From the NCBI GenBank assembly GCA_017502135.1, contig JAFVVP010000008.1:1-47927 (forward strand): a stretch of DNA of 47,927 nucleotides. Direction: 5' to 3'. A model generated the notes under the pieces. It worked only from the letters and a program-made list of their open reading frames with translations, searched no databases and was not told the origin of the DNA. The position numbers were made by a program, and so were the translations under genes. Within the stretch, counting starts at the first letter, position 1. Each line of letters begins with the position of its first letter. Of the stretch, positions 20,794-38,892 are shown piece after piece. This DNA is from Clostridia bacterium. GTDB taxonomy: Bacteria; Bacillota; Clostridia; Oscillospirales; CAG-272.

Positions 20794-20815
20794 GTTCTTT
20801 CCCTCCTTGCAAACA

Positions 20816-20830
20816 GTGACAATTTGTCAC
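20816..20830. promoter_or_regulatory. Palindromic operator upstream of the XRE gene
   Basis: GTGACAA-T-TTGTCAC, a perfect 7-1-7 palindrome, between the XRE gene (start 20793) and the coiled-coil gene (stop 20835). It is followed by a direct repeat CCGTTTCATA/CCGTTTCATT. It is a likely binding site of the adjacent XRE regulator. It differs from the TGTCAAG-type operators at 28.3 kb. Confidence 0.7.
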
Positions 20831-20834
20831 CGTT

Positions 20835-21548: not shown

Positions 21549-21564
21549 TTCCCTTCTCCTTTTC

Positions 21565-22250: not shown

Positions 22251-22434
22251 TTTTAATACTCCTGTTCCACGCTTCGATTTCTCGTTCTCGGCTTGCGTGC
22301 ATTTCATAAAAAGAACTGCACGTGCATGAGCCCGCAGGCTTGTCCGCGGAGAAAACAAAATATTCGCCGCATACATACGCGATTTCCGGAACATTTCCGC
22401 ACTTGGGACACGGCTTCGGCTTCAGTTCAGCCAT
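22243..22434 (-). CDS. Lar-like restriction alleviation protein
   Basis: 63 aa from ATG 22434, with TTGGAGGTG upstream. LKPKPCPKCGNVPEI followed by SCTCSSFYEMHASREREIEA and WNRS closely matches the Lar family (Rac prophage restriction alleviation protein, zinc-ribbon with terminal AWN). Lar-type proteins counteract type I restriction. It lies beside two DNA methyltransferases, consistent with host-defence evasion. Confidence 0.75.
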   Translation of the reverse strand: MAELKPKPCPKCGNVPEIAYVCGEYFVFSADKPAGSCTCSSFYEMHASREREIEAWNRSIKNG

Positions 22435-25020: not shown

Positions 25021-25036
25021 TCTCTTTTCTTCTCCG

Positions 25037-25162
25037 TTATATCAGTCCGATCTGCCCTTCCGGGTCTGGCAGAGTCCACCACGGTTTCTGTTTTTCCTCT
25101 GCCGGCTTTTTGACCGGCGCCGGCGTCTCCCGTCTCGCATACTTGACGTCGCGTGCATTCAC
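25037..25162. repeat. 126-bp direct repeat, copy A (left of LRR gene)
   Basis: Matches 26161-26286 with 3 mismatches and no gaps. Both carry the 3' end of the same coding region, and together they flank the LRR gene (25253-26143). Confidence 0.9.
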
Positions 25163-25221
25163 CCATCCGCGCGGCAAGGCGCGAACAAAAGCAAATCGGC
25201 CATTTTTTCAAGTGGATTCAT
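25037..25221 (-). pseudogene. Truncated duplicate of the DxxYVR-type gene tail, frameshifted
   Basis: The 3' part (25037-25162) duplicates the end of the gene at 26161-26469. The in-frame copy reads VNARDVKYARRETPAPVKKP with 3 base differences. It lacks the N-terminal half. Upstream, a different start (ATG 25221, with GGGGAG) opens a short frame ending at TGA 25161-25159, offset by one frame from the duplicate. So it is either a broken gene or an artefact of recombination. A functional frameshift is less likely. Confidence 0.6.
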
Positions 25222-25252
25222 TTGCACTAACTCCCCTCACTTCCTCACACAA

Positions 25253-26143
25253 TCACTTATTTTCAAAGAACCGCTTAAATACGTCCGCGCGGTACGCGCC
25301 TTTTGTGATATCAATGATCTCTCGGACGGTATATGTATCCTTGATTCCCTTTTGAGCGCGAACAAACTGCTCCGTCCCCGCCTTACACGCACCGGTGATA
25401 ACGCGGTACATTGTTTTCGCTTCGTCAAAAGTAACAACCGTGTCCGGTGTATAAGTTTTGTACTGATCTGCACCGCGATCTCTCGCTTTCTTAAACTCCA
25501 GATCACACACACCATCCTCAAACGATTCACAGTGCGCGTAATTCTCGCCATCAAAAATCACGTTCCGGCTCTTGATCTTGCCGATATAATATGTGTACTC
25601 TCCGATCTTCTTTTCACGCTTTACATGCGTAAGAATACCGTCGCAGTACAGATAATTGCCCGGCGCATAATCGCCATCCTTCAATTTTTTACACTTGCTC
25701 GTAAGGCCGCGGAGATAGAGATTCCCGCCGACCGTCGGATTGAATCCCTCCGGAATGCTCGTAAGGTTGCCGAGATAGAGACTGCCGCCGACCGTCGGAT
25801 TGAATCCCTCCGGAATGCTCGTAAGGTTGCCGAGATAGAGATCGCCGCCGACCGTCGGATTGAATCCCTCCGGAATGCTCGTAAGGTTGCTGAGATCGAG
25901 CCAACCGCCGACCGTCGGATTGAATCCCTCCGGAATGCTCGTAAGGCTGCCGAGATAGAGACTGCCGCCGACCGTCGGATTGAATCCCTCCGGAATACTC
26001 ATAAGGCTGCCGAGATAGAGACTGCCGCCGACCGTCGGATTGAATCCCTCCGGAATACTCATAAGGCTGCCGAGATAGAGACTGCCGCCAGTCTTGTTGG
26101 CTCTCTTCACTAATTCGTTCAGTTGTTTCAATGTGTATTTCAT
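25253..26143 (-). CDS. Phage leucine-rich-repeat (20-residue minisatellite) protein
   Basis: 296 aa from ATG 26143 with CAGGAGATAAGCAA upstream. An N-terminal helix KYTLKQLNELVKRANK is followed by six full 20-residue units with consensus GGSLYLGSLTSIPEGFNPTV and a seventh partial unit. The C-terminal half is unrelated: VIFDGENYAHCESFEDGV and TYTPDTVVTFDEAKTMYRV, then EIIDITKGAYRADVFKRF. It is a gut-phage-type LRR protein of unknown function; LRR surfaces usually bind proteins. No signal peptide. Confidence 0.8.
   Translation of the reverse strand: MKYTLKQLNELVKRANKTGGSLYLGSLMSIPEGFNPTVGGSLYLGSLMSIPEGFNPTVGGSLYLGSLTSIPEGFNPTVGGWLDLSNLTSIPEGFNPTVGGDLYLGNLTSIPEGFNPTVGGSLYLGNLTSIPEGFNPTVGGNLYLRGLTSKCKKLKDGDYAPGNYLYCDGILTHVKREKKIGEYTYYIGKIKSRNVIFDGENYAHCESFEDGVCDLEFKKARDRGADQYKTYTPDTVVTFDEAKTMYRVITGACKAGTEQFVRAQKGIKDTYTVREIIDITKGAYRADVFKRFFENK
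25697..26089 (-). repeat. 60-bp tandem repeat (minisatellite) inside the LRR gene
   Basis: Six full 60-bp units plus one partial, nearly identical (two copies at the 5' end are identical in sequence). Variation is concentrated at two positions (the S/M/T and YLG/DLS/YLR codons). This suggests recent expansion or homogenisation. Confidence 0.92.
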
Positions 26144-26160
26144 TTGCTTATCTCCTGTTT

Positions 26161-26286
26161 TTATATCAGTCCGATCTGCCCTTCCGGGTCGGGCAGAGTC
26201 CACCACGGTTTCTGTTTTTCCTCTGCCGGCTTTTTGACCGGCGACGGCGTCTCCCGTCTCACATACTTGACGTCGCGTGCATTCAC
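26161..26286. repeat. 126-bp direct repeat, copy B (3' end of the 26161 gene)
   Basis: The intact copy of the duplicated segment; see 25037-25162. Confidence 0.9.
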
Positions 26287-26469
26287 GATCATGCCGTGTA
26301 CGCGGTATTTCTCAGGCGTGCCCGGCTGTGAATACAGTTTCCAGTACCCTTGATCCGGATAGTAATACCCATCGTACCGTACGTACAGATCCACATCCGC
26401 ACGCCGTACGATCTTGCACCGCCCCTGTTCGGGTACGCCCTTGATTACTGTATACCGTTTTTCGTTCAT
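26161..26469 (-). CDS. Small phage protein of unknown function
   Basis: 102 aa from ATG 26469 (overlapping the stop of the membrane gene). Pattern: EKRYTVIKGVPEQGRCKIV, DLYVRYDGYYYPDQGYWKLY, HGMIVNARDVKYVRRETP, KQKPWWTLPDPEGQIGLI. Beta-rich with conserved aromatic residues. No family recognised. Its 3' end is duplicated at 25037-25162, which implies recombination of the segment carrying the LRR gene. Confidence 0.7.
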   Translation of the reverse strand: MNEKRYTVIKGVPEQGRCKIVRRADVDLYVRYDGYYYPDQGYWKLYSQPGTPEKYRVHGMIVNARDVKYVRRETPSPVKKPAEEKQKPWWTLPDPEGQIGLI

Positions 26470-26771
26470 CTTTCCGCACCCAGTATCTCTCGGATCATCT
26501 CCGGAGGAATAACGCCCTGTCTCCTCGGCGCACGTGCACGCTTGAACAGTCGTGCGATCTCCAGGGATGCACAGAGCAAAAGCACAGCGACCTGCACCAC
26601 GAAAAACCACGCCAGCGACGACTTGTCCAACGTCATCTCAACACCGGCAACCATTCCGACGAAGCACGGGAGCGCCCGAAGATCAACGACGACGCATGCC
26701 GCACAAAGCAAGCCGCCGACGGACGCCCACGTGTCTCTTGACAAATTTTTGAGTATCTGATATAATTTCAT
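26466..26771 (-). CDS. Small phage membrane protein
   Basis: 101 aa with two membrane segments: WASVGGLLCAACVVVDLRAL (about 15-34) and SLAWFFVVQVAVLLLCASLE (about 52-71). Basic C-terminus (FKRARAPRRQG). Ribosome site AAAGGT. No family recognised. A membrane-acting early phage gene could alter host envelope or exclusion. Confidence 0.7.
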   Translation of the reverse strand: MKLYQILKNLSRDTWASVGGLLCAACVVVDLRALPCFVGMVAGVEMTLDKSSLAWFFVVQVAVLLLCASLEIARLFKRARAPRRQGVIPPEMIREILGAER

Positions 26772-26825
26772 TGGGTTATTACCTTTGCGCTCTCGCGTGT
26801 TGCCATCTGCGGACCCCCGAAACTC

Positions 26826-27254
26826 TCACCATTCGTTTCGGGGAACCCCTGTGCACCGAGGGCGCTTTTTCCTTTCTTTGATTTTCGAAACGTCGTCATA
26901 ATGCGGATCCCCGTTGATCTCGATCACAATACCGCGATCAAGCAGCTCCGCTGCCATATTGTCAGCCATACGGTCAACGCCGTCCGGATCAATGTCCTTT
27001 TTATCGTACACGTCATCAGCCACACCCGAAAGGATCTCGCTGAATCCCTCCACCACGCGCTGGCATCGCTTCGATCCGAAGTTAAACAGATCCGATAGCG
27101 AAAGGCAAACCGCAAAGATCGTCCGACGGGTAAGCCGCCATTGCAAACTCTTTGCGTACTCCTCCACTTTGGAAGCGAAATATTCCCGCGCTGCCCGATC
27201 GAGCTCGCTGCGCTGTTCTGCCGTAAGATTATGAGGCCTTATTCTTGCTTTCAC
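26826..27254 (-). CDS. Uncharacterised phage protein, helical
   Basis: 142 aa from GTG 27254: the ribosome site AAGGAG lies 7 bases upstream, while an earlier in-frame TTG sits on top of that site. Sequence: PHNLTAEQRSELDRAAREYF, ASKVEEYAKSLQWRLTRRTI, DIDPDGVDRMADNMAAELLD. All-helical, basic C-terminus. Common in Firmicute phages but no function known. The start overlaps the upstream gene. Confidence 0.65.
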   Translation of the reverse strand: MKARIRPHNLTAEQRSELDRAAREYFASKVEEYAKSLQWRLTRRTIFAVCLSLSDLFNFGSKRCQRVVEGFSEILSGVADDVYDKKDIDPDGVDRMADNMAAELLDRGIVIEINGDPHYDDVSKIKERKKRPRCTGVPRNEW

Positions 27255-27822
27255 CTGAAAACTCCTTCTCCTCAAGCAGTATGTCCATCTTCCCGATCGC
27301 GCTCTTCAGACATACACCATCAGTCGTTACGTCGATGTACGCGAACTCCGGCTCGCCGATCTCGCGCACGATCTTTCCGAACGTCTCCGCGATCCTCGCG
27401 ATCCTTTCAACTACGCCGATCTTCTCCGGCATCGGGGCAGTCGCGACGACCGCCTTCTCCTTGGCCTCTATCTCTTTGGCGATCTCCTTCCCTTTCGATC
27501 TCAGATCGTGCAGTTTTGCCCAGATCGCACCCTTTGTCCGCCCCATATCACGGGCGATCTGCTCCGCCGTTAACCCGAGTTTCCTTTTCTCCAGGAGATA
27601 CTCAACCTCGTCGAGCGTCCATTCTTGTTTACTCACTGTCTTTTTCCTCTTTTCTTTTGGTTTTTGTTCCTTTTCAAGTACGCCCCACCGTTCGAGGATC
27701 TCTTGGATCACGTTCGGCGCTACGCCGTTCAGCTCAACGAGGATCTTGATCTGCGGTCTCTTGTGGAGCGCCTGACGGTAGTCCGCTACGATCTCGCCCT
27801 CCGTCATCCACATTTTACTCAC
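27229..27822 (-). CDS. Phage regulator-like protein with Myb-type helix-turn-helix
   Basis: 197 aa. The middle section (KQEWTLDEVEYLLEKRKLGL, TAEQIARDMGRTKGAIWAKL) is a Myb/SANT-like or RNA-polymerase sigma-like HTH. The N-terminus has a helical fold before it and the C-terminus is unique. GTG start overlaps the previous stop (GTGA). Typical of early-block replication regulators. Precise role unknown. Confidence 0.7.
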   Translation of the reverse strand: MSKMWMTEGEIVADYRQALHKRPQIKILVELNGVAPNVIQEILERWGVLEKEQKPKEKRKKTVSKQEWTLDEVEYLLEKRKLGLTAEQIARDMGRTKGAIWAKLHDLRSKGKEIAKEIEAKEKAVVATAPMPEKIGVVERIARIAETFGKIVREIGEPEFAYIDVTTDGVCLKSAIGKMDILLEEKEFSGESKNKAS

Positions 27823-28037
27823 GCCTGTCCCGATGTGACCGGGATTATTTCAACGTAGTCCTTGCCCTTAAGCTCGCTCAACTCGTCAGGGTGCTGCCGA
27901 AAGTATTCGCTCATAACTTTGCTGAGCCGCTCGCCCGCCTTCTCTGCATAATCGTCCGGCAAACGGTCCACTTGTACGCCGTTTAAAAAGAATCGGTATG
28001 TAATCGGTTGATTCCGTCTTCCCGCCACATCTTTCAC
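27819..28037 (-). CDS. Small phage protein, unknown function
   Basis: 72 aa, ATG with AAAGGGGTGAAAG upstream. FLNGVQVDRLPDDYAEKAGE, RLSKVMSEYFRQHPDELSEL. It is the first or second gene of the early operon after Cro. A small helical protein; the pattern is similar to unnamed phage proteins widespread in Firmicute prophages. No function claimed. Confidence 0.65.
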   Translation of the reverse strand: MKDVAGRRNQPITYRFFLNGVQVDRLPDDYAEKAGERLSKVMSEYFRQHPDELSELKGKDYVEIIPVTSGQA

Positions 28038-28092
28038 CCCTTTCTTTTAGTAAATTCTGTATTTGCGTTTTTTGTGCACGTCCCTCTCCCGC

Positions 28093-28299
28093 TCAGGCGG
28101 GAGTTTCTTTTTGTTCGGACGGCGCCCGCAAAAGCTCATCCACCGTGCACCCGAGCACGTCCGCCAATTTCGGCAGCAGATCTGCGCGGGGCAAACTCGT
28201 ACCCGTTTCCCACATCGCAACAGTTGATCTCTTCACGCCCATGATGTCGCCAAGCTGTTGCTGTGTCAAGTTTTTTGATCTTCTTTTTGATGCAATCAC
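28093..28299 (-). CDS. Cro-like XRE repressor
   Basis: 68 aa, a single HTH: SKRRSKNLTQQQLGDIMGVK, RSTVAMWETGTSLPRADLLP. It is the first gene of the leftward early operon, diverging from the CI-type gene. The promoter and operators lie at 28,317-28,416. Partial operator half-site TGTCAAG-TTT-TTTGATC overlaps its start (28264-28280). It blocks repressor maintenance transcription, as Cro does, by inference. Confidence 0.88.
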   Translation of the reverse strand: MIASKRRSKNLTQQQLGDIMGVKRSTVAMWETGTSLPRADLLPKLADVLGCTVDELLRAPSEQKETPA

Positions 28300-28316
28300 G
28301 CTTTCTCTCTCCTTGT

Positions 28317-28333
28317 TGTCAAGTTTCTTGACA
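28317..28333. promoter_or_regulatory. Operator O1
   Basis: TGTCAAG TTT CTTGACA, a perfect 7-3-7 palindrome. It overlaps the expected start of the leftward early transcript. Confidence 0.85.
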
Positions 28334-28335
28334 CC

Positions 28336-28364
28336 ATTATACCCCTCACCTCCTATCTTGTCAA
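28336..28364 (-). promoter_or_regulatory. Leftward early promoter (lytic), consensus sigma-A type
   Basis: Minus strand: -35 TTGACA (28364-28359), 17-base spacer, -10 TATAAT (28341-28336). Both boxes are exact consensus. O2 covers the -35 box and O1 the start site, so repressor binding should shut it off. Confidence 0.88.
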
Positions 28365-28375
28365 GTATCTTGACG
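28359..28375. promoter_or_regulatory. Operator O2
   Basis: TGTCAAG TAT CTTGACG. It overlaps the -35 box of the leftward promoter. Its centre is 42 bp from O1. Confidence 0.85.
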
Positions 28376-28394
28376 AAAATATTTTCAATTTCTA

Positions 28395-28423
28395 TTGAAT
28401 GTCAATTTAATTGACGATATAAT
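28395..28423 (+). promoter_or_regulatory. Repressor promoter (rightward), operator in spacer
   Basis: -35 TTGAAT (28395-28400), 17-base spacer, -10 TATAAT (28418-28423). Operator O3 fills the whole spacer, so the repressor probably limits its own synthesis. Confidence 0.8.
28400..28416. promoter_or_regulatory. Operator O3
   Basis: TGTCAAT TTA ATTGACG, palindromic with 6-7 bp arms. Its centre is 41 bp from O2. It lies between the -35 and -10 of the repressor promoter. Confidence 0.82.
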
Positions 28424-28453
28424 ATTGTTAAAGATGAAAATGGAGTTGAAAAT

Positions 28454-29053
28454 ATGATTCGGTTAAAAGTTGCTCGTCAAAGAGCGAATCTCAATCAATC
28501 TGAACTCGCCAAAACAGTCGGCGTCAGTCGTTCAACTATTGCTATGTGGGAATCCGGCGCCAGCCAGCCTGACATAGAGATGATCCTTCAGCTGAGCCAC
28601 GTGCTCGATATTTCGGTCGGTGAGCTTCTTGGCGAAGAAACCGACTCACCCCTTCCCGACCCCACGTGGATCAACGTGCTCGGCCGCGTTGCCGCCGGCA
28701 TCCCGATCGAAGCGATCGAGGAAGTGATCGACCGCGAACAGATCTCCGAAGCGATGGCGCGCAACGGCACGTATATCGGTTTACAGATCCACGGTTCCTC
28801 TATGGAGCCGCGGATGCGCGAGGGCGACATTGTGATCGTCCGCCTGCAGGATGACTGCGACTCCGGCGACACCGTGATCGCCATGGTGAACGGCGACGAA
28901 GCCACTTGTAAGATCTTACAAAAAACGAGAGAAGGTATTTCCCTTCTCTCTACGAATCCCGCCTATAGCCCTATGTTCTTCTCCAACCACGATATCGAGA
29001 CGCTCCCCGTCCGTATCATCGGCAAGGTGGTCGAACTCCGGGCGAAATTTTGA
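28454..29053 (+). CDS. Phage CI/LexA-type repressor with S24 autopeptidase
   Basis: 199 aa. N-terminal XRE HTH (residues about 1-60). Linker then the S24 domain: cleavage-type bond A81-G82 in GRVAAGIP, catalytic Ser116 in GSSMEPRMREGDIVIV and Lys153 in ATCKIL. This is the lysogeny maintenance repressor, removed by RecA-stimulated self-cleavage. Good ribosome site (GGAG, 8 bases). It binds the operators at its 5' side by inference. Confidence 0.93.
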   Translation: MIRLKVARQRANLNQSELAKTVGVSRSTIAMWESGASQPDIEMILQLSHVLDISVGELLGEETDSPLPDPTWINVLGRVAAGIPIEAIEEVIDREQISEAMARNGTYIGLQIHGSSMEPRMREGDIVIVRLQDDCDSGDTVIAMVNGDEATCKILQKTREGISLLSTNPAYSPMFFSNHDIETLPVRIIGKVVELRAKF

Positions 29054-29061
29054 GGGTGTCT

Positions 29062-30099
29062 ATGCTTCAACTGATATTAATAACTATCATTGGCGTGTGG
29101 ATTTGCAATAAGATAGTAAATCGCAGCGAGCGACATTCTTCTCGCAAATCTTATAATAAGTCAAGGCCAATATCTGTTTCAAAGCCGCGCGATGAGGATC
29201 TGAATAGAGGAAGAGGCAACAACTCGGAATCATACAATTACGACTATTATGTCGGAAAGCGCGAAAAATACAAGCATTGCCCCGATTGCTTTCTGAAAAA
29301 CCCTGTTGATCGTTGGTACTGTCTGGAATGTGGACATGGTTTCGGGGAAGAAGAACCGCTGATAACTTCCCACGAACATCCCTTTTCCTACAACTACTGG
29401 CTTTCGCCTAAATTCCGAACACAGCATCAACGCACCAGATTTAGGCGAGCTTCTCAAATTCAACTCAAATCCCACTCTTCCGATTATACTTACACGACAG
29501 TTTTCTCGTCCGATTTCTCTACTGTTTACGAAGTAACCCCGGAATCGTGCACATGCCAGGACTTTTTCAAGCGCGGACTACCGTGCAAGCATATGTATGC
29601 AGTAATGATCCAGGCAGGTGTAATATCCTCCATCTCCGCTCTATACAATCTGCCGAGCGATATTTCTTTCTGCATCGATAATCTGCAGCGTATTTCGAAG
29701 GACGCCGCCCGCGAGTTCGCCTTATATCTTCGCTATAAACGATTTTCTTCTAATCGAGTGATCGTTGACCGTTCAAATGATGTTTTTAAGCATCTCCCTA
29801 CCATCGCTTCTCTTTCGCTTATAGCGATAGACAACTCTATCTCCGATGAATTGATCGCATACGTTGAAAAAACATACACCGCCGATGACTTTCGGGAGTT
29901 ATGTTCCGCCGTCGTGCCCGAACTGAAACTCCCTAAACTGAAAAAACGCGATTTGATAGCCTTTGCACTTTTGCAAAAAGTTGAATTATCGGAATATTTT
30001 TCGAATCTGTTTCGCCTTGTTTGCATTCCGGAAAACATCTTTACCCGCCGTAAGGAAATTTTCGATTACTATTTCGAAGAGTACCCGGATGCCGCATGA
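29062..30099 (+). CDS. Membrane-anchored zinc-ribbon and SWIM-domain protein
   Basis: 345 aa. Start ATG 29062: GAGGGTGTCT upstream; an earlier TTG overlaps the repressor stop. Segment MLQLILITIIGVWICNKIV is one membrane helix (1-20), then a Cys pair zinc ribbon (HCPDCFLK; RWYCLECGHG), then a SWIM zinc finger: CTCQDFFKRGLPCKHMYAV. A large helical C-terminus follows. SWIM fingers bind nucleic acid or protein. It lies between repressor and integrase, so it is probably expressed in the lysogen and might exclude superinfecting phage (inference). Confidence 0.72.
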   Translation: MLQLILITIIGVWICNKIVNRSERHSSRKSYNKSRPISVSKPRDEDLNRGRGNNSESYNYDYYVGKREKYKHCPDCFLKNPVDRWYCLECGHGFGEEEPLITSHEHPFSYNYWLSPKFRTQHQRTRFRRASQIQLKSHSSDYTYTTVFSSDFSTVYEVTPESCTCQDFFKRGLPCKHMYAVMIQAGVISSISALYNLPSDISFCIDNLQRISKDAAREFALYLRYKRFSSNRVIVDRSNDVFKHLPTIASLSLIAIDNSISDELIAYVEKTYTADDFRELCSAVVPELKLPKLKKRDLIAFALLQKVELSEYFSNLFRLVCIPENIFTRRKEIFDYYFEEYPDAA

Positions 30100-30150
30100 C
30101 CGTTTTAGAAAATTGCATTTCCCACTGACTACATATTAACGGAGTAACCC

Positions 30151-31032
30151 ATGATAAAATATTGCCCCCGCTGCGGAGAGCAGCTGGAGTCCGGATCCGC
30201 GTTTTGCGTAGAATGCGGAGAGTCCATTCCCGCCGAACCGATGCTCGAATGCCCGATCTGCGGAGAGATGAACAAGCCCAAAGCGCGCTTCTGCAAAAAA
30301 TGCGGAGATAAGATCGTTCACCCGTCCGATATGGTGATCTGCCCTGAATGCGGCGAGGTAAGTTATGAAACCGCCGACTTCTGCATGCACTGCGGCGAAG
30401 AGTTTTACCGCGATGAATTCGGTGAAGATCCGTGCACCTACTATGATCGCCGTGAAAAATTGCAATACGTTGAACCTTCGTTTCGCTCTTCTCTGCGTAA
30501 GTTTGTGCTTGGGAATGAGGCTGCCCCGCAGCTCCCTTCTACCGCCCTGGTCAAGCCTAAAAAGAAGATGTCCGGGTGGAGTAAACTTGCTGTCGTCTGC
30601 CTCGTTCTGATTGTCCTTTATGCGATTGGAAGCAACTCAAATTCCGATCCTGTTCCGGAACTTTCTCCGTCTGCGCAGACCATGTCGGCATCAGAATACA
30701 AATCAAGCTGCCAAACATTTGCGTACGACGATATTGCCCGCAATCCGAGCCAATATGTGGGAAAAAAGGCTGTTTTCAGAGGAAAGGTCATTCAAGTATT
30801 GGAAAACGGAAACACAGTCGTTCTGCGCGTCGATGTAACCGAAGGCACGTATTTGTGGAGCGACACCGTATATGTTAATTATCGCCGCAAATCGGATAAT
30901 GAAAGCAGAATCCTCGAGGATGATATTATCACAATGTACGGTGAACTGGCAGGTATAAAAGAATACACTTCAGCATTGGGCATATCCATATCCATACCGT
31001 CCCTTACTGCTGTGTATATTGAAATTAATTAG
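30151..31032 (+). CDS. Double zinc-ribbon membrane protein with OB-fold-like domain
   Basis: 293 aa. Three CxxC-type zinc knuckle pairs in the first 90 residues: CPRCGEQLESGSAFCVECGE, CPICGEM and CKKCGDK, CPECGEV and CMHCGEE. One membrane helix (WSKLAVVCLVLIVLYAIGS) near residue 150. Then an outer domain, YDDIARNPSQYVGKKAVFRG, VIQVLENGNTVVLRVDVTEG, an OB-like (nucleic-acid-binding) pattern. Located in the moron position beside the integrase. A possible superinfection or signalling protein; not named. Confidence 0.75.
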   Translation: MIKYCPRCGEQLESGSAFCVECGESIPAEPMLECPICGEMNKPKARFCKKCGDKIVHPSDMVICPECGEVSYETADFCMHCGEEFYRDEFGEDPCTYYDRREKLQYVEPSFRSSLRKFVLGNEAAPQLPSTALVKPKKKMSGWSKLAVVCLVLIVLYAIGSNSNSDPVPELSPSAQTMSASEYKSSCQTFAYDDIARNPSQYVGKKAVFRGKVIQVLENGNTVVLRVDVTEGTYLWSDTVYVNYRRKSDNESRILEDDIITMYGELAGIKEYTSALGISISIPSLTAVYIEIN

Positions 31033-31050
31033 TTCCGAACAGAGGTGTAT

Positions 31051-32499
31051 ATGATCTCTCCCGACAAAACCGCCGCCGCGTATATCCGCGTTTCGGATGA
31101 ACGGCAGGACGAATACTCCCCGGACAGCCAGCTGAAACGAATCCGCGAATATTGCAAGGAAAACGGCTACGAGCTGCCGCAGGAATACATATTCTATGAC
31201 GACGGCATCAGCGGCAAGTCCGTGAAACGCCGCGACCAATTCCGCGAGCTCATCGCGCTCGCAAAGGATAAGGATCACCCGATCGACGCGATCCTCGTGT
31301 GGAAGTTCTCCCGTTTCGCCCGCAATCAGGAAGAGAGCATCGTCTATAAATCCCTGCTTCAAAAGATCGGCGTAACGGTTGTCTCCATCTCCGAGCCGCT
31401 CCCGGACGGGCCGTTCGGCTCTCTCGTAGAGCGCATCATTGAATGGATGGACGAATACTACCTCATTCGTCTGTCCGGCGAGGTAAAGCGCGGCATGCTT
31501 GAAAAAGCTTCCCGCGGTCAACCTGTGTGCGCGCCCGCGTTCGGCTACGATCTGAAAGACGATATGTATACTCCGAACGATCAAGCGCCGATCGTGCGCG
31601 ATGTGTTTGAATCCTTTGTATCCGGGGAAGGAATACGAAAAATCGCTCGCCGTCTCGGTGATGCGGGTGTGCGCACCAGGTTCGGCAATCTTCCCGATAA
31701 TCGCTGGGTTGAGTATATGCTCAATAACCCGACCTATATCGGAAAGATCCGCTGGTCAACAGACGGACGCACGGCATCCGCGCGGCGGTATGACGATCCG
31801 AATATTGTGATCTTCGACGGAAAGCACGAGCCGATCGTCTCCAAGGAACTCTGGGATTCCGCCCAAGCACTCCTCACCGAGCGGAAAACGAAATACGCAA
31901 AATATGCGCGGAAAGAACAGGCGCCATCCTCGTTCCCTCTCCGCAGTCTGTTCCGATGCAGCGCCTGCGGCGCCACTCTCATTCAGTCGACCGCTAAGAA
32001 TCCCGGACTGCAGTGTCATAACTATTCACGCGGTATATGCGACACATCCCACAGCATCACACAGAAAAAAGCAGAGGCCGCCCTCGCTGAAGCGCTGGAG
32101 GATTCTCTCCGCACCCTCTCTTTCTACGTAACGCCGACCGCCGAAATTGTCTCCTCACCCGGCAACGTGGAAATTGAAAGAAATATCGCGGCCGAGAAGC
32201 GGCGGCTTCAGCGCGCCAAGGATGCCTACCAAAACGGCGTTGATACGCTCGAGGAATACGCCGAAAATAAAAAAAGGATCACGCAGCGTATACGTGATCT
32301 CGAATCTCAACTGAACCCAGAGCCTCCTGCCCCGGTATCTCTTGAAAAATATGTTGCTCGTGTCAAAAACGCGCTCAAACTCCTCAAGGATCCCTCCGTA
32401 AAGCCGGACGCAAAAAACAAAGCACTTCTTGAAATATTGGAAAAGGTGATCTTCCGCGCAAACACCCGCACGATCGACCTTTATTTTCGCCCCTTATGA
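31051..32499 (+). CDS. Large serine recombinase (phage integrase)
   Basis: 482 aa from ATG 31051 (AGAGG upstream). Resolvase domain AAYIRVSDERQDEYSP with catalytic Ser15, then DGISGKSVKRRDQF and VWKFSRFARNQEES. The recombinase domain has FGYDL and GIRKIARRLGDAGVRT. A zinc-ribbon FRCSACGATLI and a coiled coil (AEKRRLQRAKDAYQNG) follow. Such integrases act on attP/attB without other factors to integrate; excision needs a directionality factor, not identified here. Its 3' end is about 13 bp from the cotJC junction, consistent with an adjacent attachment site. Confidence 0.94.
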   Translation: MISPDKTAAAYIRVSDERQDEYSPDSQLKRIREYCKENGYELPQEYIFYDDGISGKSVKRRDQFRELIALAKDKDHPIDAILVWKFSRFARNQEESIVYKSLLQKIGVTVVSISEPLPDGPFGSLVERIIEWMDEYYLIRLSGEVKRGMLEKASRGQPVCAPAFGYDLKDDMYTPNDQAPIVRDVFESFVSGEGIRKIARRLGDAGVRTRFGNLPDNRWVEYMLNNPTYIGKIRWSTDGRTASARRYDDPNIVIFDGKHEPIVSKELWDSAQALLTERKTKYAKYARKEQAPSSFPLRSLFRCSACGATLIQSTAKNPGLQCHNYSRGICDTSHSITQKKAEAALAEALEDSLRTLSFYVTPTAEIVSSPGNVEIERNIAAEKRRLQRAKDAYQNGVDTLEEYAENKKRITQRIRDLESQLNPEPPAPVSLEKYVARVKNALKLLKDPSVKPDAKNKALLEILEKVIFRANTRTIDLYFRPL

Positions 32500-32524
32500 C
32501 TATCAGCAAAAGCCATCGGGACCG
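32500..32524. other. Right attachment junction (attR/attL) inside cotJC
   Basis: Coding sequence of cotJC ends at its codon 34 (32514-32512), and phage DNA begins between there and the integrase stop (32499). Sequence GGTCCCGATGG in cotJC is the last coherent cotJC stretch. The exact crossover cannot be fixed without the other end. See finding. Confidence 0.7.
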
Positions 32525-32613
32525 CCGAGTTGCGATACGATAATCTGCGCGTACTGCGGATTAGGGTTTTTAATCTTTACCGGAAACTGCAATTCTTTTC
32601 TATACACCCACAT
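32503..32613 (-). pseudogene. cotJC: 5' part of cotJC, interrupted by the prophage
   Basis: ATG 32613 with GGAGG ribosome site, 3 bp after cotJB. Reads MWVYRKELQFPVKIKNPNPQ then YAQIIVSQLGGPDG (34 codons), a typical CotJC start, then FC and a stop. The normal next residues (E-L-A/K-A-A..., first Mn ligand) are absent. Compare the intact paralogue at 40,133-40,798, which reads LGGGNGELKAAM at the same point. The 3' part should lie left of position 1. Confidence 0.85.
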
Positions 32614-32616: not shown

Positions 32617-33027
32617 TCACACCTCCCACGGCCAGGGCTGACGCACCCACTGCCATTCGTCTTTACTGCCATTTCCCATTGCGGTAAGCGGGCCGTAGGC
32701 TTTCTCGTAAGATGCCGCCAGTTCCTTGTAATCACGGACAACGCATTTGTATCTTGCCAAAGCTGCTGTGTTATCGGGGTGTCCGTCCAGATACAGTTCA
32801 AGTTCAACTATAACAAAATACAGCGACATCAGTTTTTCGCGCATCTGACACCACTCGCTCGTGTTTCGGTCATTCGGAAAAGTTTCGGTTTTCGTACCGG
32901 GCCGACGGTATTCTTGTTTCCCTGTGAAGCGCGAATCCGTTTCACACCCGCAAAAACCGCCGCTATATCCGCGTCTTTCTCTCAAAGCGCAGTCATCACG
33001 GCGTGCATATCCTCGTGTATTTCCCAT
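32617..33027 (-). CDS. cotJB: Spore coat protein CotJB with N-terminal extension
   Basis: 136 aa. The core (MREKLMSLYFVIVELELYLD, GHPDNTAALARY, YGPLTAMGNG, WQWVRQPWPWEV) is the CotJB domain. It has about 60 extra N-terminal residues (Arg/Gly-rich), unlike the usual ~80-aa protein. It is coupled to CotJA (TAATG). It is a spore inner coat component. Shows the host forms spores. Confidence 0.88.
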   Translation of the reverse strand: MGNTRGYARRDDCALRERRGYSGGFCGCETDSRFTGKQEYRRPGTKTETFPNDRNTSEWCQMREKLMSLYFVIVELELYLDGHPDNTAALARYKCVVRDYKELAASYEKAYGPLTAMGNGSKDEWQWVRQPWPWEV

Positions 33028-33329
33028 TAGATACAGCCTCCTCTCGATTTTGCACCGTTTGCATCCTTTATCGGAAGAAAGAGGTTCTTAAAAAGCGTTC
33101 CGTGCCCAAGTGCTTCTCGGGGGCACTCAAATATATCGCCAAATCCCTGATACGGCGACGATACGATAGCCAGCGGCGAATCCGAATACTGGTCGGCCGT
33201 GCCGCATCCGCATTCTCCCTGCGCAGTAACCGTAGGTGTTTCGCGCGTTACAGAAACGGGACCGCGCATCATCATATCCGTGCAGTCGCCGAGAATACGC
33301 GGAGTGGCTGAATAATCATATGATTTCAT
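33027..33329 (-). CDS. cotJA: Spore coat protein CotJA
   Basis: 100 aa. C-terminal core PLAIVSSPYQGFGDIFECPR then EALGHGTLFKNLFLPIKD is the CotJA pattern (usually PxAxAYVPWQ...). N-terminal part has a CGCGT run. First gene of the cotJABC operon, transcribed in the mother cell by sigma-E in related species. No convincing sigma-E promoter identified by eye upstream. Confidence 0.82.
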   Translation of the reverse strand: MKSYDYSATPRILGDCTDMMMRGPVSVTRETPTVTAQGECGCGTADQYSDSPLAIVSSPYQGFGDIFECPREALGHGTLFKNLFLPIKDANGAKSRGGCI

Positions 33330-33544: not shown

Positions 33545-34252
33545 TTATTTTGCTGCGGAAACTGCGGTGATGTGGGTGTTTACGCCCTCGTACCAGTAAA
33601 GGAAGCCTTCTACGTCGATGACGTCACCTGCGTTCAGTGCGGCTACTGCCTTGTAAACGTCGGTATCCGGACCTGCGAGGTAGTTCTCAACGCAGAAATC
33701 GTAGTTTGCGCCGTCATTGGAAACGGTGAGGTAAATGTCCTTATCCCACTCGCTGTCCTTATAAGCGATGGAAACAACGGTCATGCCCTTGAAAGAAACC
33801 TTCTTGTTCTGGTGATTGATCAGTTCTTCTTTGCCGAGCAGATCGGTAACGTCAAGAACGTCGGCAATCCATTTTCCTTCAACGATTTCGATGGTAGCGT
33901 CCATGATCTCGATTTCGCCGGCCCAAGTGCCCTTGTAACCTTTGACCTTGATCTTCTGACCTTCGGTCAGCTTAGCAGCATCTTCTTCAGAGCACTTAGC
34001 TTCATAAAGGAAGTATGCACCGTCGGGATCCTGTGCGTACACGGTTACAACACCCTGTCCGTTATTCTCCCACCATGCCTGATGTCCCTGTACGTATGCC
34101 TCGATTACTACCTCGGCATCCATCGGAGCTGCCATGTACTCTTCATAAGTCATGACGCCTTCGGACTTTGCGTTTACATCTACCATCTTATCGCATGCAA
34201 CAAGGCCGCATGCAACAACAAGTACGAGTGCGAGTGCCAAAATTTTCTTCAT
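33545..34252 (-). CDS. Lipoprotein with OB-fold-like domains
   Basis: 235 aa from ATG 34252 (GGAGG 8 bases upstream). Signal peptide KKILALALVLVVACGLVAC: two Cys candidates, the lipobox LVAC. Then acidic beta-rich domains with EAYVQGHQAWWENNGQGVVTVY and VSFKGMTVVSIAYKD, similar to OB-fold-like extracellular lipoproteins of Clostridia. Unknown ligand. Own promoter (34294-34322) and terminator, so a monocistronic unit. Confidence 0.8.
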   Translation of the reverse strand: MKKILALALVLVVACGLVACDKMVDVNAKSEGVMTYEEYMAAPMDAEVVIEAYVQGHQAWWENNGQGVVTVYAQDPDGAYFLYEAKCSEEDAAKLTEGQKIKVKGYKGTWAGEIEIMDATIEIVEGKWIADVLDVTDLLGKEELINHQNKKVSFKGMTVVSIAYKDSEWDKDIYLTVSNDGANYDFCVENYLAGPDTDVYKAVAALNAGDVIDVEGFLYWYEGVNTHITAVSAAK

Positions 34253-34293
34253 TGTTTGTTCCTCCATAGTTTAGTTGGGTAAAATGCTGTACT

Positions 34294-34322
34294 ATTATAC
34301 AACAAATTCCTGAATAAATCAA
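34294..34322 (-). promoter_or_regulatory. Promoter of the lipoprotein gene
   Basis: Minus strand: -35 TTGATT (34322-34317), 17-base spacer, -10 TATAAT (34299-34294). The -35 overlaps the end of the solute-binding-protein gene. Confidence 0.7.
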
Positions 34323-35944
34323 TGGGTATTTTGGATTTTTTTGTTTTTTCTTTGTTTAATTGTTTCTCGAAGCAAATAAAGCAAAATAAAAAACCAAGTC
34401 CCGGCAAGAACGCTTAAAAGAAATACGGACGTTGACGGCAAAGGACCCACCGTCCTCTCCCCATCGGTCGTATCGCTACGAATACCGCTTTGATCCAGGC
34501 GGTAAAGAGACGTTATGTCCGCAAACAAAGCATCCATATACTCTTCATCTATCGTCTGTTTTCGGCGGACGGATTTCGTTGTGTTTTCAATCAGTTGGCC
34601 GGCAGCGTTTCGAAGCGATGCCGATCCGTTGAACACGGGAGTAACGAACGTGTCATCCACGTGCGAAATAAGAAGTTCGGACGCCTTAATCTTCACGTCA
34701 TAATGCAGCTCTTTGTCCTCACCGATGCGGGAGAGATACTCAATATATTCGGGTGAGTTCTGCGCCTTTAACGTCACGGGAACGTAGCCTTCTGTCTGTG
34801 CGTAGGCAATCTGCACGTCGTTCGTCAGAAGATACTGGGCGAAAAGCCACGATGCCAACACCTCCCCGGGATCGCTTTTATTGAACACGCAGACAGAGGG
34901 CCCCTGCGAGATCATTACGGAATTCTCGGGATCGTACTGCGGAATAGGCATAACCACCGTTTCGAAATTAACGAGATTCTCCTCCGGAATATCGATAAGA
35001 GGAGCATCCGAGCCCATCCACGTCGCACCGGCGGTCGAATCCACGGCAAAAATGCACTGCCCCGCATTCAGATAATTCGCAGGATAGCCGAGAATCTTGA
35101 ACGTGCCGAATGCTTCGCTTTTTGCGTGCTCAGCCACGGTATAAAGGATCTCTTTCGTGGTATCGTTGAAGAGCCCTATTTCACCGGCATCGGTAGAATA
35201 CGGAGCACACTTCTGCTTCAACATCTGGATCATCATATTATCCGTGGATTTGTATATGAACGGAAACAGAACCTTCTGGCCGTTCACCTTGAAATTCCCA
35301 TCTGCATCCTTTTCGAGCGCGGCTTCTGAAACTTCCCATACGAAATCCCAAGTAAGCACCTCGGGCAACGTAAAGCCAAGCGCTTCCACGTACGTCTTGT
35401 TCACGTAGCACGCCTCGGTTGAACGCATATACGGTATGGCGTAGTGCTTACCGTCAAGAATACATTCTTCGAGGAACTGCGGCACGATCTGTTCTTTTGT
35501 GGGAGAATCAAAACGCACTTCACTGCCGCCGAGGCCGTACTTTTCATCGTCGAACAGTTCGTCGAGCGGCACAACAGTCCCCGCGCCCGTCAGATACGTC
35601 GCAATATGATCGGGATAGGTGATACAGACGTTCGGCGTCGTCTTCGTGGAAATATTTGTAATGACGTCGTTATAGATATGGCCGTAGTCCGTATAAAGCC
35701 GAAGATTCACCGTAATATTCGGGTACAGCGCCATAAAATCCTCGATCGCCTTCTGATAGATCCCGACCTGCGTTTTGTTCGTGTCGTTTTTTGCCCAAAA
35801 CGAAATCTCGTACGCGTGAGAGGTATCAAACGTCTCCGGCATTTCAAAAGGCGGATAACTGCGAGATCCGTGGCAGCCCGTGAGAAGGAGTGATGAAAGA
35901 AGCACCGTCAAAAGAAGCACGGAAACAAGACGAAGTTTTCTCAT
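34319..35944 (-). CDS. Sugar ABC transporter substrate-binding lipoprotein with C-terminal membrane anchor
   Basis: 541 aa. Lipobox LLTGC after signal peptide (RLVSVLLLTVLLSSLLLTGC). Extracellular solute-binding family 1: EISFWAKNDTNKTQV, YPNITVNLRLYTD, MLKQKCAPYS, VFNKSDPGEVLASWLFAQYL. An additional membrane helix at the C-terminus (STSVFLLSVLAGTWFFILLY) is followed by KQRKNKK; unusual as the lipid already anchors it. Overlaps the permease gene (ATGA). Sugar specificity cannot be read. Confidence 0.88.
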   Translation of the reverse strand: MRKLRLVSVLLLTVLLSSLLLTGCHGSRSYPPFEMPETFDTSHAYEISFWAKNDTNKTQVGIYQKAIEDFMALYPNITVNLRLYTDYGHIYNDVITNISTKTTPNVCITYPDHIATYLTGAGTVVPLDELFDDEKYGLGGSEVRFDSPTKEQIVPQFLEECILDGKHYAIPYMRSTEACYVNKTYVEALGFTLPEVLTWDFVWEVSEAALEKDADGNFKVNGQKVLFPFIYKSTDNMMIQMLKQKCAPYSTDAGEIGLFNDTTKEILYTVAEHAKSEAFGTFKILGYPANYLNAGQCIFAVDSTAGATWMGSDAPLIDIPEENLVNFETVVMPIPQYDPENSVMISQGPSVCVFNKSDPGEVLASWLFAQYLLTNDVQIAYAQTEGYVPVTLKAQNSPEYIEYLSRIGEDKELHYDVKIKASELLISHVDDTFVTPVFNGSASLRNAAGQLIENTTKSVRRKQTIDEEYMDALFADITSLYRLDQSGIRSDTTDGERTVGPLPSTSVFLLSVLAGTWFFILLYLLRETIKQRKNKKIQNTH

Positions 35945-36816
35945 CCTTTCGTACCTCCTCTCGATACGCCCTCCATAATCTTTTTACGGAAGATAAGAAA
36001 TAAAGCGATAAGCGGCACGGAGATAACGACCACCGCCGCCATCATTGCGGGGATATTCTCACGTCCGAATCCGCTTTCGCGGATGGCCTGGATACCGTTG
36101 GAAACGAGAAAATGAGACTGTTCGTCTGTAACGAGACGCGGCCAGACGTAGGAGTTCCAGCACTCGATCACCTTCAGAATCGTAACGGTAATGATCGTCG
36201 GCTTCGTGATCGGGATGAGCACCTTAAAGAGATATTTGAGATCGCTCGTTCCGTCCACCTTGGCGGCATAATAAAGCTCGTTTGGAACCTGCGAGAAGTT
36301 TTCCTTTAAAAGATAGATATAGAACACGGACGTCACCGACGGCAGGATAAGTCCCGCAAACGTGTTTCTCAGTTCGAGATTCGTAACGGTAACGTAGTTC
36401 GTAATAACAACAAGCTCGGAGGGGATCATCATCAGCGCCAAAAAGAGCGTAAACAAAAGATCCTTGCCCCTGAACTGAAGTCTTGCAAACGCAAACGCCG
36501 CAAAAACGGTAACGATCAGCATAAGCGCCGTCGTAATAACTGTAAAAATGACCGTGTTTACGAAGTAATCGAGAAGCGGCACTTCCGTAAAGGCGGAAAT
36601 GTAATTTTCAAGCGTAGGGGTGAGCGTAAAGAGTTTCGGAATGTACTCTGCGTTGTACGCGCCGTAGCTTTTGACGGACGTAAGAAGCATCCAATAAAAC
36701 GGAAACAGAACCATAATGCCCCAAAGTCCCAAAAGCACGTACGTAACCGACGTCAGCACTTTTTTTCGGACGTCAGCCGTCCGTTCGATTTTTTCAAAAT
36801 CCGTACGTTTTTTCAT
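35941..36816 (-). CDS. Sugar ABC transporter permease (MalG/UgpE-like)
   Basis: 291 aa, six membrane helices, opening with a basic N-terminus. EAA-loop: ELYYAAKVDGTSDLKYLFKVLIPITKP. Forms a heterodimer with the preceding permease and works with the ATPase upstream and binding protein downstream. Confidence 0.93.
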   Translation of the reverse strand: MKKRTDFEKIERTADVRKKVLTSVTYVLLGLWGIMVLFPFYWMLLTSVKSYGAYNAEYIPKLFTLTPTLENYISAFTEVPLLDYFVNTVIFTVITTALMLIVTVFAAFAFARLQFRGKDLLFTLFLALMMIPSELVVITNYVTVTNLELRNTFAGLILPSVTSVFYIYLLKENFSQVPNELYYAAKVDGTSDLKYLFKVLIPITKPTIITVTILKVIECWNSYVWPRLVTDEQSHFLVSNGIQAIRESGFGRENIPAMMAAVVVISVPLIALFLIFRKKIMEGVSRGGTKG

Positions 36817-36826
36817 CGGATACCTC

Positions 36827-37717
36827 TCAGTAGTGCACGTGCTTTTTGCTGACCATAAGATTGATTACGGTAATGGTCAGTACGATCGCGAAAAGAACGA
36901 TGGCCGCCGCCGAAGCATAAGACGGATATCCGCCGCTGTCGCCGTAGAGCATATCGTATACGTAGCCGACGATCGTGTTCATCTCTGCCGCATTCAGATC
37001 CGTGCCGAAAAGTGCAACCGCATCGCTGTACGCCTTGAATGCGCCGATAAATCCGGTAATCACCAAATAAAAGAGCGAGGGCGAGATCATGGGCAGCGTG
37101 ATTTTGGTGAAGATGCGGAATCTTGACGTGCCGTCGACCTTCGCGGCTTTGTAATAATCCCCGTTTACGGATGCAAGTGCACTCGTTAGAATAAGTATTT
37201 TAAACGGCATAACGACCCAAATGGTATAAAAACAAAGAACGAACATCTTCGCCCAATAAGGGCCATCGATAAAGTCGATCGCTTCCCCGCCGAAAAACTG
37301 AATGATGAGGTTTACAAACCCGTCCGAATACGGCGTCTTCTGAAAGAGGATCATAAAGACGAGTCCGACCGCCAAGGTATTCGTAACGTACGGGAGAAAA
37401 TAGACCGTCTGAAACAGCTCGCGCAGTTTTTTAATGGAATTGAGGCCGAGTGAAATAAGAAGCGCGATGCCGGTAGAAAGCGGAACTGTAATAAATACGA
37501 GAATAAAGGTATTCTTGACCGCCTGCAAAAAGAATGTGTCGTGAAGAATGTAGGAGTAATTGTACGTACCTATTCCCGAAAAACTCTGAGAGGCAAAGTT
37601 GTACCCCTCTTCCAATGAATAGATAAACACGTCTATGAGCGGATACACCATAAACGCGCCCAAAAACAGAAGCGCGGGCAAAAGGTAGAGCCACGCTTTA
37701 TAGTTCTTTTCTTCCAT
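36827..37717 (-). CDS. Sugar ABC transporter permease (MalF/UgpA-like)
   Basis: 296 aa, six membrane helices, first AWLYLLPALLFLGAFMVYPL. EAA-loop: DYYKAAKVDGTSRFRIFTKI, TLPMISPSLFY. Paired with the MalG-like permease. GGAGCGGCAA ribosome site. Confidence 0.93.
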   Translation of the reverse strand: MEEKNYKAWLYLLPALLFLGAFMVYPLIDVFIYSLEEGYNFASQSFSGIGTYNYSYILHDTFFLQAVKNTFILVFITVPLSTGIALLISLGLNSIKKLRELFQTVYFLPYVTNTLAVGLVFMILFQKTPYSDGFVNLIIQFFGGEAIDFIDGPYWAKMFVLCFYTIWVVMPFKILILTSALASVNGDYYKAAKVDGTSRFRIFTKITLPMISPSLFYLVITGFIGAFKAYSDAVALFGTDLNAAEMNTIVGYVYDMLYGDSGGYPSYASAAAIVLFAIVLTITVINLMVSKKHVHY

Positions 37718-37728
37718 TTGCCGCTCCT

Positions 37729-38829
37729 TTACAGATCCGTGCGTATGCGCGCACCCGTCTCTTTATCGAACACAAATACTTTTTGAGGGATGAGATCGAA
37801 ACGGACCGTCGTGCCGCGGATCTCCGACATATTCTCCGCGCGGATAATCGAGCGGATCGTTTCGTTTTCCGAAAAGGGGTGTGTAGATACGACGCTCACG
37901 TCACGCCCCATCACTTCCACCCGAGTGAGATCAAGACGAAAAGCGCCGGTCTCGGCGAGAACAAATCCCTCGGGGCGGATCGCGACCGCTACATCACGAT
38001 CGGAAATTCCCGTGACCTCCAGAACGGCCTCTTCACCGATATACAGTTTTCCGCCGCGCACAGTTCCCTCAAACACGTTGATCGGCGGCGTGCCGAGGAA
38101 TTTTGCAACGAACAGATTCGAGGGATCGTCATACACCGACTGCGGCTCGCCGATCTGCTGCACCACGCCTTCCTTCATAACGATAATGAGATCGGAGATG
38201 CTCATGGCTTCTTCCTGATCGTGGGTAACAAATACGGTCGTAATACCCGTTTCGCGCTGAATCCGGCGAATCTCTTCACGGGTCTGCAAACGAAGCCGCG
38301 CGTCAAGGTTGGAGAGAGGCTCGTCCAAGAGGAGAATTTTCGGCATTTTCACAAGCGCACGTGCGATTGCCACGCGCTGCTGCTGACCGCCGGAAAGTTC
38401 ACTCGGCTTACGCTCCATAAGCTCCTCGATCTGCACAAGCTTTGCGGCCTCGTAGGCTTTTTCACGCATCTGCTCTTTTGTGAGGCGATCCTTCCCTTTT
38501 TGATTCTCAAGCGGGAAAACTATATTTTGCATAACGGTGAGATGTGGATAGAGCGCATAGTTCTGGAACACAAGACCGACACCGCGGTGTTCCGGGGGCA
38601 GGTTCGTTACGTCATCATCGCCGAAATAAATCTTTCCCGACGTCGGTTTCTGAAGGCCGCTTAAAAGGTGGAGCGTGGTGCTCTTTCCGCAGCCGGAAGG
38701 GCCGAGAAGGCCTACCAGCTTGCCGTCGGGGATTTCAAACGAAAAACCGTTTACAGCAACAACGTCCGCACCCGCTTTCTTATCGCGGTTCGGGAATTTC
38801 TTTGTCAGATTTGAGAGGACTACTTTCAT
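37729..38829 (-). CDS. Sugar ABC transporter ATP-binding protein (MsmX/UgpC-like)
   Basis: 366 aa from ATG 38829, the normal family length; longer frames start above the promoter at 38,893. Walker A GLLGPSGCGKSTTL, signature LSGGQQQRVAIARAL, Walker B ILLLDEPLSNLDARLR, H-loop TVFVTHDQEEAM. C-terminal OB domains (FVAKFLGTPPINVFEGTVRG, VAIRPEGFVL). Energises the two permeases downstream. The start could also be 38838. Confidence 0.92.
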   Translation of the reverse strand: MKVVLSNLTKKFPNRDKKAGADVVAVNGFSFEIPDGKLVGLLGPSGCGKSTTLHLLSGLQKPTSGKIYFGDDDVTNLPPEHRGVGLVFQNYALYPHLTVMQNIVFPLENQKGKDRLTKEQMREKAYEAAKLVQIEELMERKPSELSGGQQQRVAIARALVKMPKILLLDEPLSNLDARLRLQTREEIRRIQRETGITTVFVTHDQEEAMSISDLIIVMKEGVVQQIGEPQSVYDDPSNLFVAKFLGTPPINVFEGTVRGGKLYIGEEAVLEVTGISDRDVAVAIRPEGFVLAETGAFRLDLTRVEVMGRDVSVVSTHPFSENETIRSIIRAENMSEIRGTTVRFDLIPQKVFVFDKETGARIRTDL

Positions 38830-38892
38830 CCGGATCATTACCGTCTCTTTCTTCACGTTCACAAAACCGCCCGGGGCGATTTCCTTTTTATT

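Follow-up and report, generated by a model that had tools for sequence, protein, structure and literature searches.

The sporulation gene cotJC of this Clostridia bacterium is present in three pieces, and it is nearly certain that these are separated at two sites of large serine recombinases (LSRs), one of them taken by a prophage and the other resulting from an exchange of partners within the chromosome. We propose that cotJC is a split sporulation gene that is probably rebuilt by site-specific recombination, in this genome by two reactions. The 5′ piece lies in the window, i.e., the whole analyzed stretch of 47,927 bp, which is the complete contig C4 of the MAG G000 (1.137 Mb, 10 contigs, 64.6% complete). 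The host is a spore-forming bacterium, and SpoIVA was detected in its genome. The features of the window and two features of contig C9 are as follows:

1..32511: element A, a contractile-tailed prophage; its other end lies on contig C8 at about 19080–20479, and the join between the end of C8 and the start of the window is unassembled
8556..9965, minus strand: tail sheath
11811..13751, minus strand: major head and head-maturation protease protein
13744..15282, minus strand: portal protein
15400..17238, minus strand: terminase large subunit
28454..29053, plus strand: CI-like repressor (HTH and peptidase S24)
31045..32499, plus strand: LSR-A, a 484-aa large serine integrase (PF00239, PF07508; PHROG 95 integrase) with its stop codon 12 bp from the junction
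32512..32613, minus strand: 5′ piece of cotJC, codons 1–34 (PF05067 positions 1–34)
32519..32526, minus strand: core of site A, GGCGGTCC (attL), in codons Gly30-Gly31-Pro32; the other copy is on contig C8
32617..33027, minus strand: cotJB (PF12652)
33027..33329, minus strand: cotJA (PF11007)
33560..38853, minus strand: host DNA that precedes the cotJ operon and is collinear with G003:C68 (73% DNA identity over 5.3 kb)
40133..40798, minus strand: intact Mn-catalase paralogue of 221 aa outside the cotJ operon, revealed by a Mn-catalase family search of the genome
C9:65615–67174: LSR-C
C9:67209–67283: TnpW-like stretch (a weak match, 40% over 25 residues, E 7e-4)

A preliminary description of this DNA had reported a large serine integrase close to a junction at which cotJC, preceded by intact cotJA and cotJB, reads normally for 34 codons and then turns into phage DNA with a stop two codons on. 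All of this was borne out: both upstream genes match their Pfam families, LSR-A lies next to the break, and cotJC starts at 32613 on the minus strand and runs for 34 codons to ...QLGGPDG, followed by two phage codons and a stop (Phe-Cys-stop). The break had also been placed just before the first Mn-ligand glutamate, in agreement with the alignment of the first lost residue, residue 35, with Glu35 of Mn catalase 1jku, which we take to be a metal ligand.

The phage was likewise correctly described as still carrying its structural genes. Besides those for terminase, portal, head/protease and sheath, genes for tape measure, baseplate and tail fibre were revealed to the left of LSR-A, and the gene set of a temperate prophage (integrase, repressor, head, portal, terminase and tail) is present. 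It should be mentioned that element A also encodes two DNA methyltransferases (window 22427–25020; PHROG 56 and 116) and, in the interval between repressor and integrase (29050–31032), a SWIM zinc-finger protein and a double zinc-ribbon protein.

The search of G000 with the Mn-catalase family gave four places, namely the paralogue (matched at window 40190–40798), the 5′ piece and one further piece each on contigs C8 and C9. The middle piece of cotJC (C8:18748–19068, profile positions 30–150) is preceded by element DNA and continues as in-frame cotJC after the core of site A, which reads GGCGGTCCGGATGG on C8 and GGCGGTCCCGATGG in the window, with one mismatch. The continuation of cotJC was thus found where it had been predicted, at the other end of the prophage, in the right frame and with a matching core, and the insertion in cotJC is confirmed by the in-frame continuation together with the att cores. 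Element A interrupts the reading frame of a sporulation gene whose two sides were both found, in register, and its own site-specific recombinase is encoded beside its att site. The two halves at site A lie on C4 and C8 with the join unassembled, and no overlap was found between the ends of these contigs; the corresponding halves are in direct orientation in the relatives G109 and G240 and in inverted orientation in G012.

The middle piece ends with ...DLHEDLAAE at codon 136, followed by foreign sequence. The 3′ piece (C9:65443–65604, profile positions 145–198), containing ...AAEQKARVTYDN, is located beside a second, different LSR, LSR-C. When the pieces are cut and joined at GGCGGTCC and CGCAGCAGAG, a single intact frame of 200 codons is obtained. 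The join also restores two attP sites whose inverted arms, read by eye, match at 13/13 bp (attP A) and 12/12 bp (attP C), the two arms of each site coming from different contigs. The earlier claim that excision of the prophage rebuilds cotJC therefore stood in part: the frame and the att cores fit it, but because the gene is cut again at codon 136, next to a different LSR, excision of element A alone would be insufficient.

No intact cotJC was found in G000 by the Mn-catalase family search; as this genome is 64.6% complete, an unseen intact copy is possible. The preliminary description had named an intact second cotJC as a finding that would weaken the developmental argument. None was found, but the other full-length match, the Mn-catalase paralogue, weakens the case that rebuilding is necessary. 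This paralogue belongs to a longer family type than CotJC, lies 7 kb from the broken gene and recurs in relatives. A third large serine recombinase, of 580 aa, is encoded elsewhere in G000 (G000:C6:53809–55551; L021 8809–10551).

Because G000 is a MAG of 10 contigs whose ends do not overlap, one may ask whether C8 and C9 are chimeric, or whether the pieces on them belong to other strains. Such an artefact of assembly or binning is highly improbable. Each piece is 88–92% identical to CotJC of G003, a genome of the same genus with intact cotJC, the pieces end at cores with matching arms, and their flanks are collinear with G003. Moreover, cultured isolates have cotJC cut at these sites within a single scaffold.

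At the second break (break C), contig C9 continues beyond LSR-C with mutS, mutL, miaA and other host genes, and C8 continues beyond the middle piece with genes for a MacB-type transporter, der and phosphoglucomutase. A simple prophage or other discrete element at this place was ruled out, since host chromosome lies on both flanks. In G003, the MacB gene that adjoins the middle piece is a neighbor of the response regulator gene that adjoins LSR-C. DNA alignment matched G003:C47:14141–20311 with G000:C9:72922–67434 in three collinear blocks and G003:C47:20514–23523 with C8:18512–15499; neither an LSR nor cotJC was found on G003:C47. In turn, the cotJC region of G003 is collinear with C9, C8 and C4 of G000. 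From this pattern it follows that cotJC and the spacer between the kinase and MacB genes swapped partners at the LSR-C site. In the interval from the kinase to the 3′ piece on C9, nothing beyond LSR-C and the TnpW-like stretch was found.

Judging by gene order, break C is best read as a chromosomal inversion. The two products remain together in one genome and are surrounded by core genes, which makes this the simplest reading; had the sites been direct instead of inverted, the chromosome would have split in two. GC skew did not settle the relative orientation of C8 and C9. Two relatives contain cotJC halves on opposite strands, where only inversion could rebuild the gene: in G310 the site C halves are separated by 47 kb of a single contig, a stretch that contains ruvB, the gene for tyrosyl-tRNA synthetase and further core genes, and in G012 the site A halves are 108 kb apart, with host and phage-like genes between them. 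Near the cotJC 5′ half of G310, another LSR-like gene was observed in two parts, divided by the boundary between two analyzed stretches (G310:C1, about 184124–185797; L352, L353).

Rebuilding in the mother cell by excision and inversion is the best explanation that we can offer for this arrangement. LSR-A would join attL of the window with attR of C8, so that the prophage would be excised and codons 1–34 would be fused to codons 35–136. A stand-alone cassette of about 1.7 kb, consisting of the TnpW-like ORF and LSR-C, would join the codon-136 att sites of C8 and C9. This reaction would flip a chromosome segment, fusing codons 1–136 to codons 137–200, and the same reverse reaction would restore the kinase–MacB locus as it is in G003. 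Both reactions would take place only in the sporulating mother cell, which is a dead-end cell, as in the case of skin and SP-beta. We infer the inversion (rather than the formation of two circles), the occurrence of both reactions and their confinement to the mother cell. That a programmed inversion of the core chromosome by a distant minimal cassette is combined in the terminal mother cell with the excision of a structurally complete prophage is a tentative proposal, to which we give somewhat less than an even chance; if it is true, the chromosome itself would be the intervening sequence in the mother cell.

A Mn-catalase match was found in 233 of the 295 genomes of the family, in many of them as fragments only. 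We searched 64 of the family genomes again, most of them because their matches were weak or multiple and some as congeners, and in 52 a CotJC piece breaks off at one of three positions that are not near the end of a contig. With G000 included, cotJC is cut in at least 53 of the 295 genomes; this is a lower bound, as the second search left out most genomes with a strong match, and the cuts were counted by hand on profile positions. Five genomes contain two cuts each (G013, G030, G091, G109, G162), and G188 contains three. The 12 re-searched genomes not counted as cut comprise two with intact cotJC (G134, G211), one with the paralogue only (G260), one with an internally shortened gene (G213), four in which the cut is at a contig end (G127, G145, G202, G225) and four with distant matches only (G086, G049, G017, G075). 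The frame in G213 (G213:C32:10939–11415; L094) lacks an inner stretch, with profile positions 1–86 joined to 151–198, perhaps by an internal deletion.

As a control we used the spoIVA domain, which was found in 97 of 118 family genomes as a single match each and was cut in none of the 97. Its listed places span at least 233 of the 237 profile positions, with shorter open frames (334–419 aa) in three of the 97 genomes; the profile covers the ATPase domain only, and breaks elsewhere in spoIVA would therefore be missed.

An LSR was found at the breaks in 20 of the 21 family genomes for which longer stretches were fetched (G000 included). As a rule it lies directly at one side of the break, and in G239 and G176 it is located deeper inside the element; no LSR was found in the one stretch of G244. 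Of the three target sites, site A falls within Gly30-Gly31-Pro32, just before Glu35. Site B, with the core ATAGGTACAGAGGA in L243, covers Glu64 and part of Glu65, and site C, with the core GCAGCAGA, covers Ala134-Ala135-Glu136. The cores were read from six of twelve junction rows, those of L194, L215, L228, L256, L258 and site C of L243 being left out as chance matches. Glutamates 35, 65 and 136 of CotJC align with residues 35, 66 and 148 of 1jku, which are presumably the glutamate ligands of the di-manganese center. With all three sites on metal-ligand codons, the recombinases seem to use the most conserved stretches of cotJC.

An alignment of LSR-C was compared with genome contigs, and at least 565 relatives were confirmed, of which the best 80 were analyzed (a few of them are records of family genomes). 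A cotJC piece was present in 76 of these best 80 of at least 565 loci: in 68 it lies at most 254 bp from the end of the LSR match, and in eight it lies elsewhere in the locus. The relatives with cotJC pieces come from across Clostridia and include cultured isolates. One of the four loci lacking a cotJC piece, L226 of Holdemanella biformis DSM 3989, belongs to a genome in which no Mn-catalase match was found, so the element can live elsewhere.

In total, 18 genomes behind the LSR-C loci were considered, and eight of them are isolates with all found pieces on one scaffold and strand. Three pieces are present in Lachnospiraceae bacterium 3-2 and Blautia sp. An249, and two in Clostridium fessum SNUG30386, Roseburia faecis M72, Parablautia intestinalis, Diplocloster modestus and two Pseudoflavonifractor; in others of the 18 genomes the halves are on different contigs. 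By eye, ORFs in C. fessum, R. faecis and strain 3-2 resemble those of a Tn916-type ICE. Among loci L180–L259, LSR-C lies beside the 3′ half of cotJC in 50 loci (same direction) and beside the 5′ half in 18 (convergent). These two types are mixed on the tree, and the few junction sequences compared look alike. Between D. modestus and C. fessum the LSR dS is 0, with cotJC saturated. A single ancestral insertion at site C was ruled out, since LSR-C moves between genera and the tree mixes the labels. In a comparison of L228 with L253, a block with cotJC and the element is flipped relative to a neighboring stretch of 2.8 kb.

Since LSR-C moves between genera, selection on the cut pieces can be read only in pairs that share an insertion. 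We used four pairs of loci taken to do so, with five stretches in total. G239 and G176 share 4.7 kb of the element, and for L228 and L253 the shared element DNA amounts to about 1.1 kb next to the LSR; in L245/L255 and L219/L258 nothing more than the LSR, the junction and the host flank is common to both loci, and their common insertion is therefore less sure. The four pairs differ at 64 synonymous versus 9 nonsynonymous positions (omega-like ratio 0.047), 3′ pieces without a start of their own included, and the two surer pairs, with element DNA shared beyond the LSR, at 33.5 versus 4.5. This shows that cut cotJC genes of relatives are under purifying selection. Pairwise values for the cut genes of genus g27 are also low, in a comparison that leaves out residues 34–61 of G030, where the match runs into element DNA. 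A pooled count of LSR-C pairs was not used, as recent transfers are mixed in.

The reading frames agree with these values. No stops were found in residues 135–176 of 67 3′ pieces (three of them read over 3–5 codons only) or in residues 62–133 of 30 middle pieces, the filter having left out pieces that do not reach residue 170. Of the 61 3′ matches in the best 80 of at least 565 loci, all but three, which begin in element DNA, have their first stop at about residue 184 or farther on, or outside the locus. The pieces of G000 compared with the intact gene of G003 give ratios of 0.17, 0.11 and 0.06, values that mix the time before and after the cuts. Damage to the cotJC 3′ ends of G091 and G239 was ruled out, as these are open frames with different tails.

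These data bear on the alternative that cotJC is dead, i.e., a dispensable gene into which phages, ICEs and recombinase cassettes can insert safely by targeting its conserved motifs, and whose pieces are pseudogene remnants. An intact Mn-catalase paralogue would make cotJC dispensable, and truncated LSRs were found in G256 and G091. The transfer of LSR-C between the genera of D. modestus and C. fessum is recent; such transfers account for some of the insertions, and a cut gene is therefore not necessarily old or functional. We nevertheless consider this alternative unlikely in view of the low ratio in the pairs taken to share an insertion, the low values for G000 against G003, and the open middle and 3′ pieces with their late first stops. 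The 3′ pieces lie behind foreign DNA and would not be expected to stay conserved unless rejoined. Sequence comparison gives signs that the cut cotJC genes of relatives remain functional, and it is likely that they are rebuilt and used. The loci G091:C76 and G256:C54, in which truncated LSR genes lie beside cut cotJC with open pieces, are possible natural controls for the loss of rebuilding.

In IMG/VR, 155 relatives of LSR-A were confirmed, of which we analyzed the best 80. Among these best 80 of 155, 18 run into cotJC at site A, and seven contain an attP-like site with the core GGNGGNCC and inverted arms (0/1200 shuffles); six have the core only, 32 have neither, and 17 end too soon. Given these site A junctions and attP-like sites, phages like element A probably circulate. 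When IMG/VR was searched for a free form of the phage, only contig L367 was obtained, a chance hairpin without an LSR, and the one cotJC match in that search covered 12 residues (E 0.13).

To get insight into regulation, we analyzed the DNA upstream of LSR-C. The pattern TGNTAYAAT, a sigma-A-like extended −10 element, is located 65–88 bp before the anchor in 11 of 38 non-redundant loci, with 0.4 expected by shuffling. Sigma-E/K patterns were revealed in 2–4 of the 38 loci against 1.1–1.6 expected, at least 183 bp upstream; a second scoring upstream of site-C LSRs gave no enrichment, and such patterns are at most weakly above chance there. Just upstream of LSR-C, 30 of 32 non-redundant loci contain a conserved ORF of about 50 aa, which in our view resembles TnpW of Tn4451 and is a candidate partner of LSR-C; no Pfam match was found for the two members searched. 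A table of PMC3416734 has cotJC itself under sigma-E.

The sigma-A-like promoters would also suit reversible phase variation in growing cells, in which the recombinases act at a low rate at any time and leave a subpopulation with rebuilt cotJC, without developmental control. An inverted arrangement would be reversible, and lysogeny and release of a phage require vegetative action. We regard phase variation as quite improbable, however. According to PMC4191935, sprA of SP-beta is expressed vegetatively too, which the promoters before LSR-C resemble, yet excision awaits sprB, which is on in the mother cell; the promoter therefore does not decide. In addition, argC, argJ and argF lie between directly oriented cotJC halves in G256, and excision in the germ line would cost the cell these genes, though the LSR is truncated there.

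Rebuilding in the mother cell can be compared with several known systems. In the skin element of sigK (B. subtilis, C. difficile), a recombinase rebuilds a mother-cell gene. The gene here is a different one, and whereas skin is an excised element, break C consists of a recombinase cassette and host chromosome only. With TnpX and TndX of Tn4451 and Tn5397, LSR-C shares the ORF of about 50 aa upstream, which we take to be TnpW-like, and in some isolates a Tn916-type, ICE-like carrier; its match to DUF4368 is below threshold (PF14287, 24.4 bits, cut-off 25). The DUF4368-rich clade of LSRs is multi-targeting according to PMC10083194; unlike it, LSR-C did not show relaxed target choice, with cotJC pieces in the 76 loci mentioned above among the best 80 of at least 565.

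SP-beta of Bacillus subtilis is excised from spsM in the mother cell by SprA/SprB, which rebuilds the gene, as stated in PMC4191935. Element A resembles it in being a prophage with a site-specific recombinase inside a spore-envelope gene; it differs in its target gene, in its contractile-tailed phage and in that excision is insufficient owing to the second break. Other elements in sporulation genes are gin in gerE of B. cereus and yin in yabG of C. botulinum (extracts of PMC5595907 and PMC10747680) and vfbin in spoVFB and vrin in spoVR (extracts of PMC4191935). In these extracts each gene has one element, whereas cotJC has three target sites with up to three cuts at once. Cut cotJC was found more than 100 times in this work (in 53 family genomes and 76 loci, with an overlap of at least three records). 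The att site of phi027 in C. difficile lies beside cotG, a CotJC homologue located downstream of attR, and mutants of CotJC type are reported to have little coat phenotype (parts of PMC11222575 and PMC12122855); unlike cotJC here, the gene is not described as interrupted in those parts. Searches of open-licence PMC full texts turned up no description of an interrupted cotJC.

To our knowledge, somatic gene rebuilding in sporulation has been known from only a handful of cases. Here, across Clostridia, one gene is targeted by several distinct LSR families, encoded by phages, by ICE-like elements or by a cassette alone, which would turn an odd set of examples into a recurrent strategy, with cultured commensals at hand for its study. 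Judging by the swap of partners at break C, development could be served by large inversions of the chromosome and not by excision alone. The proposed rebuilding would also account for spore genes that look broken in genomes of this kind, and for the position of the sites on metal-ligand codons, where the DNA of cotJC is among its most conserved.
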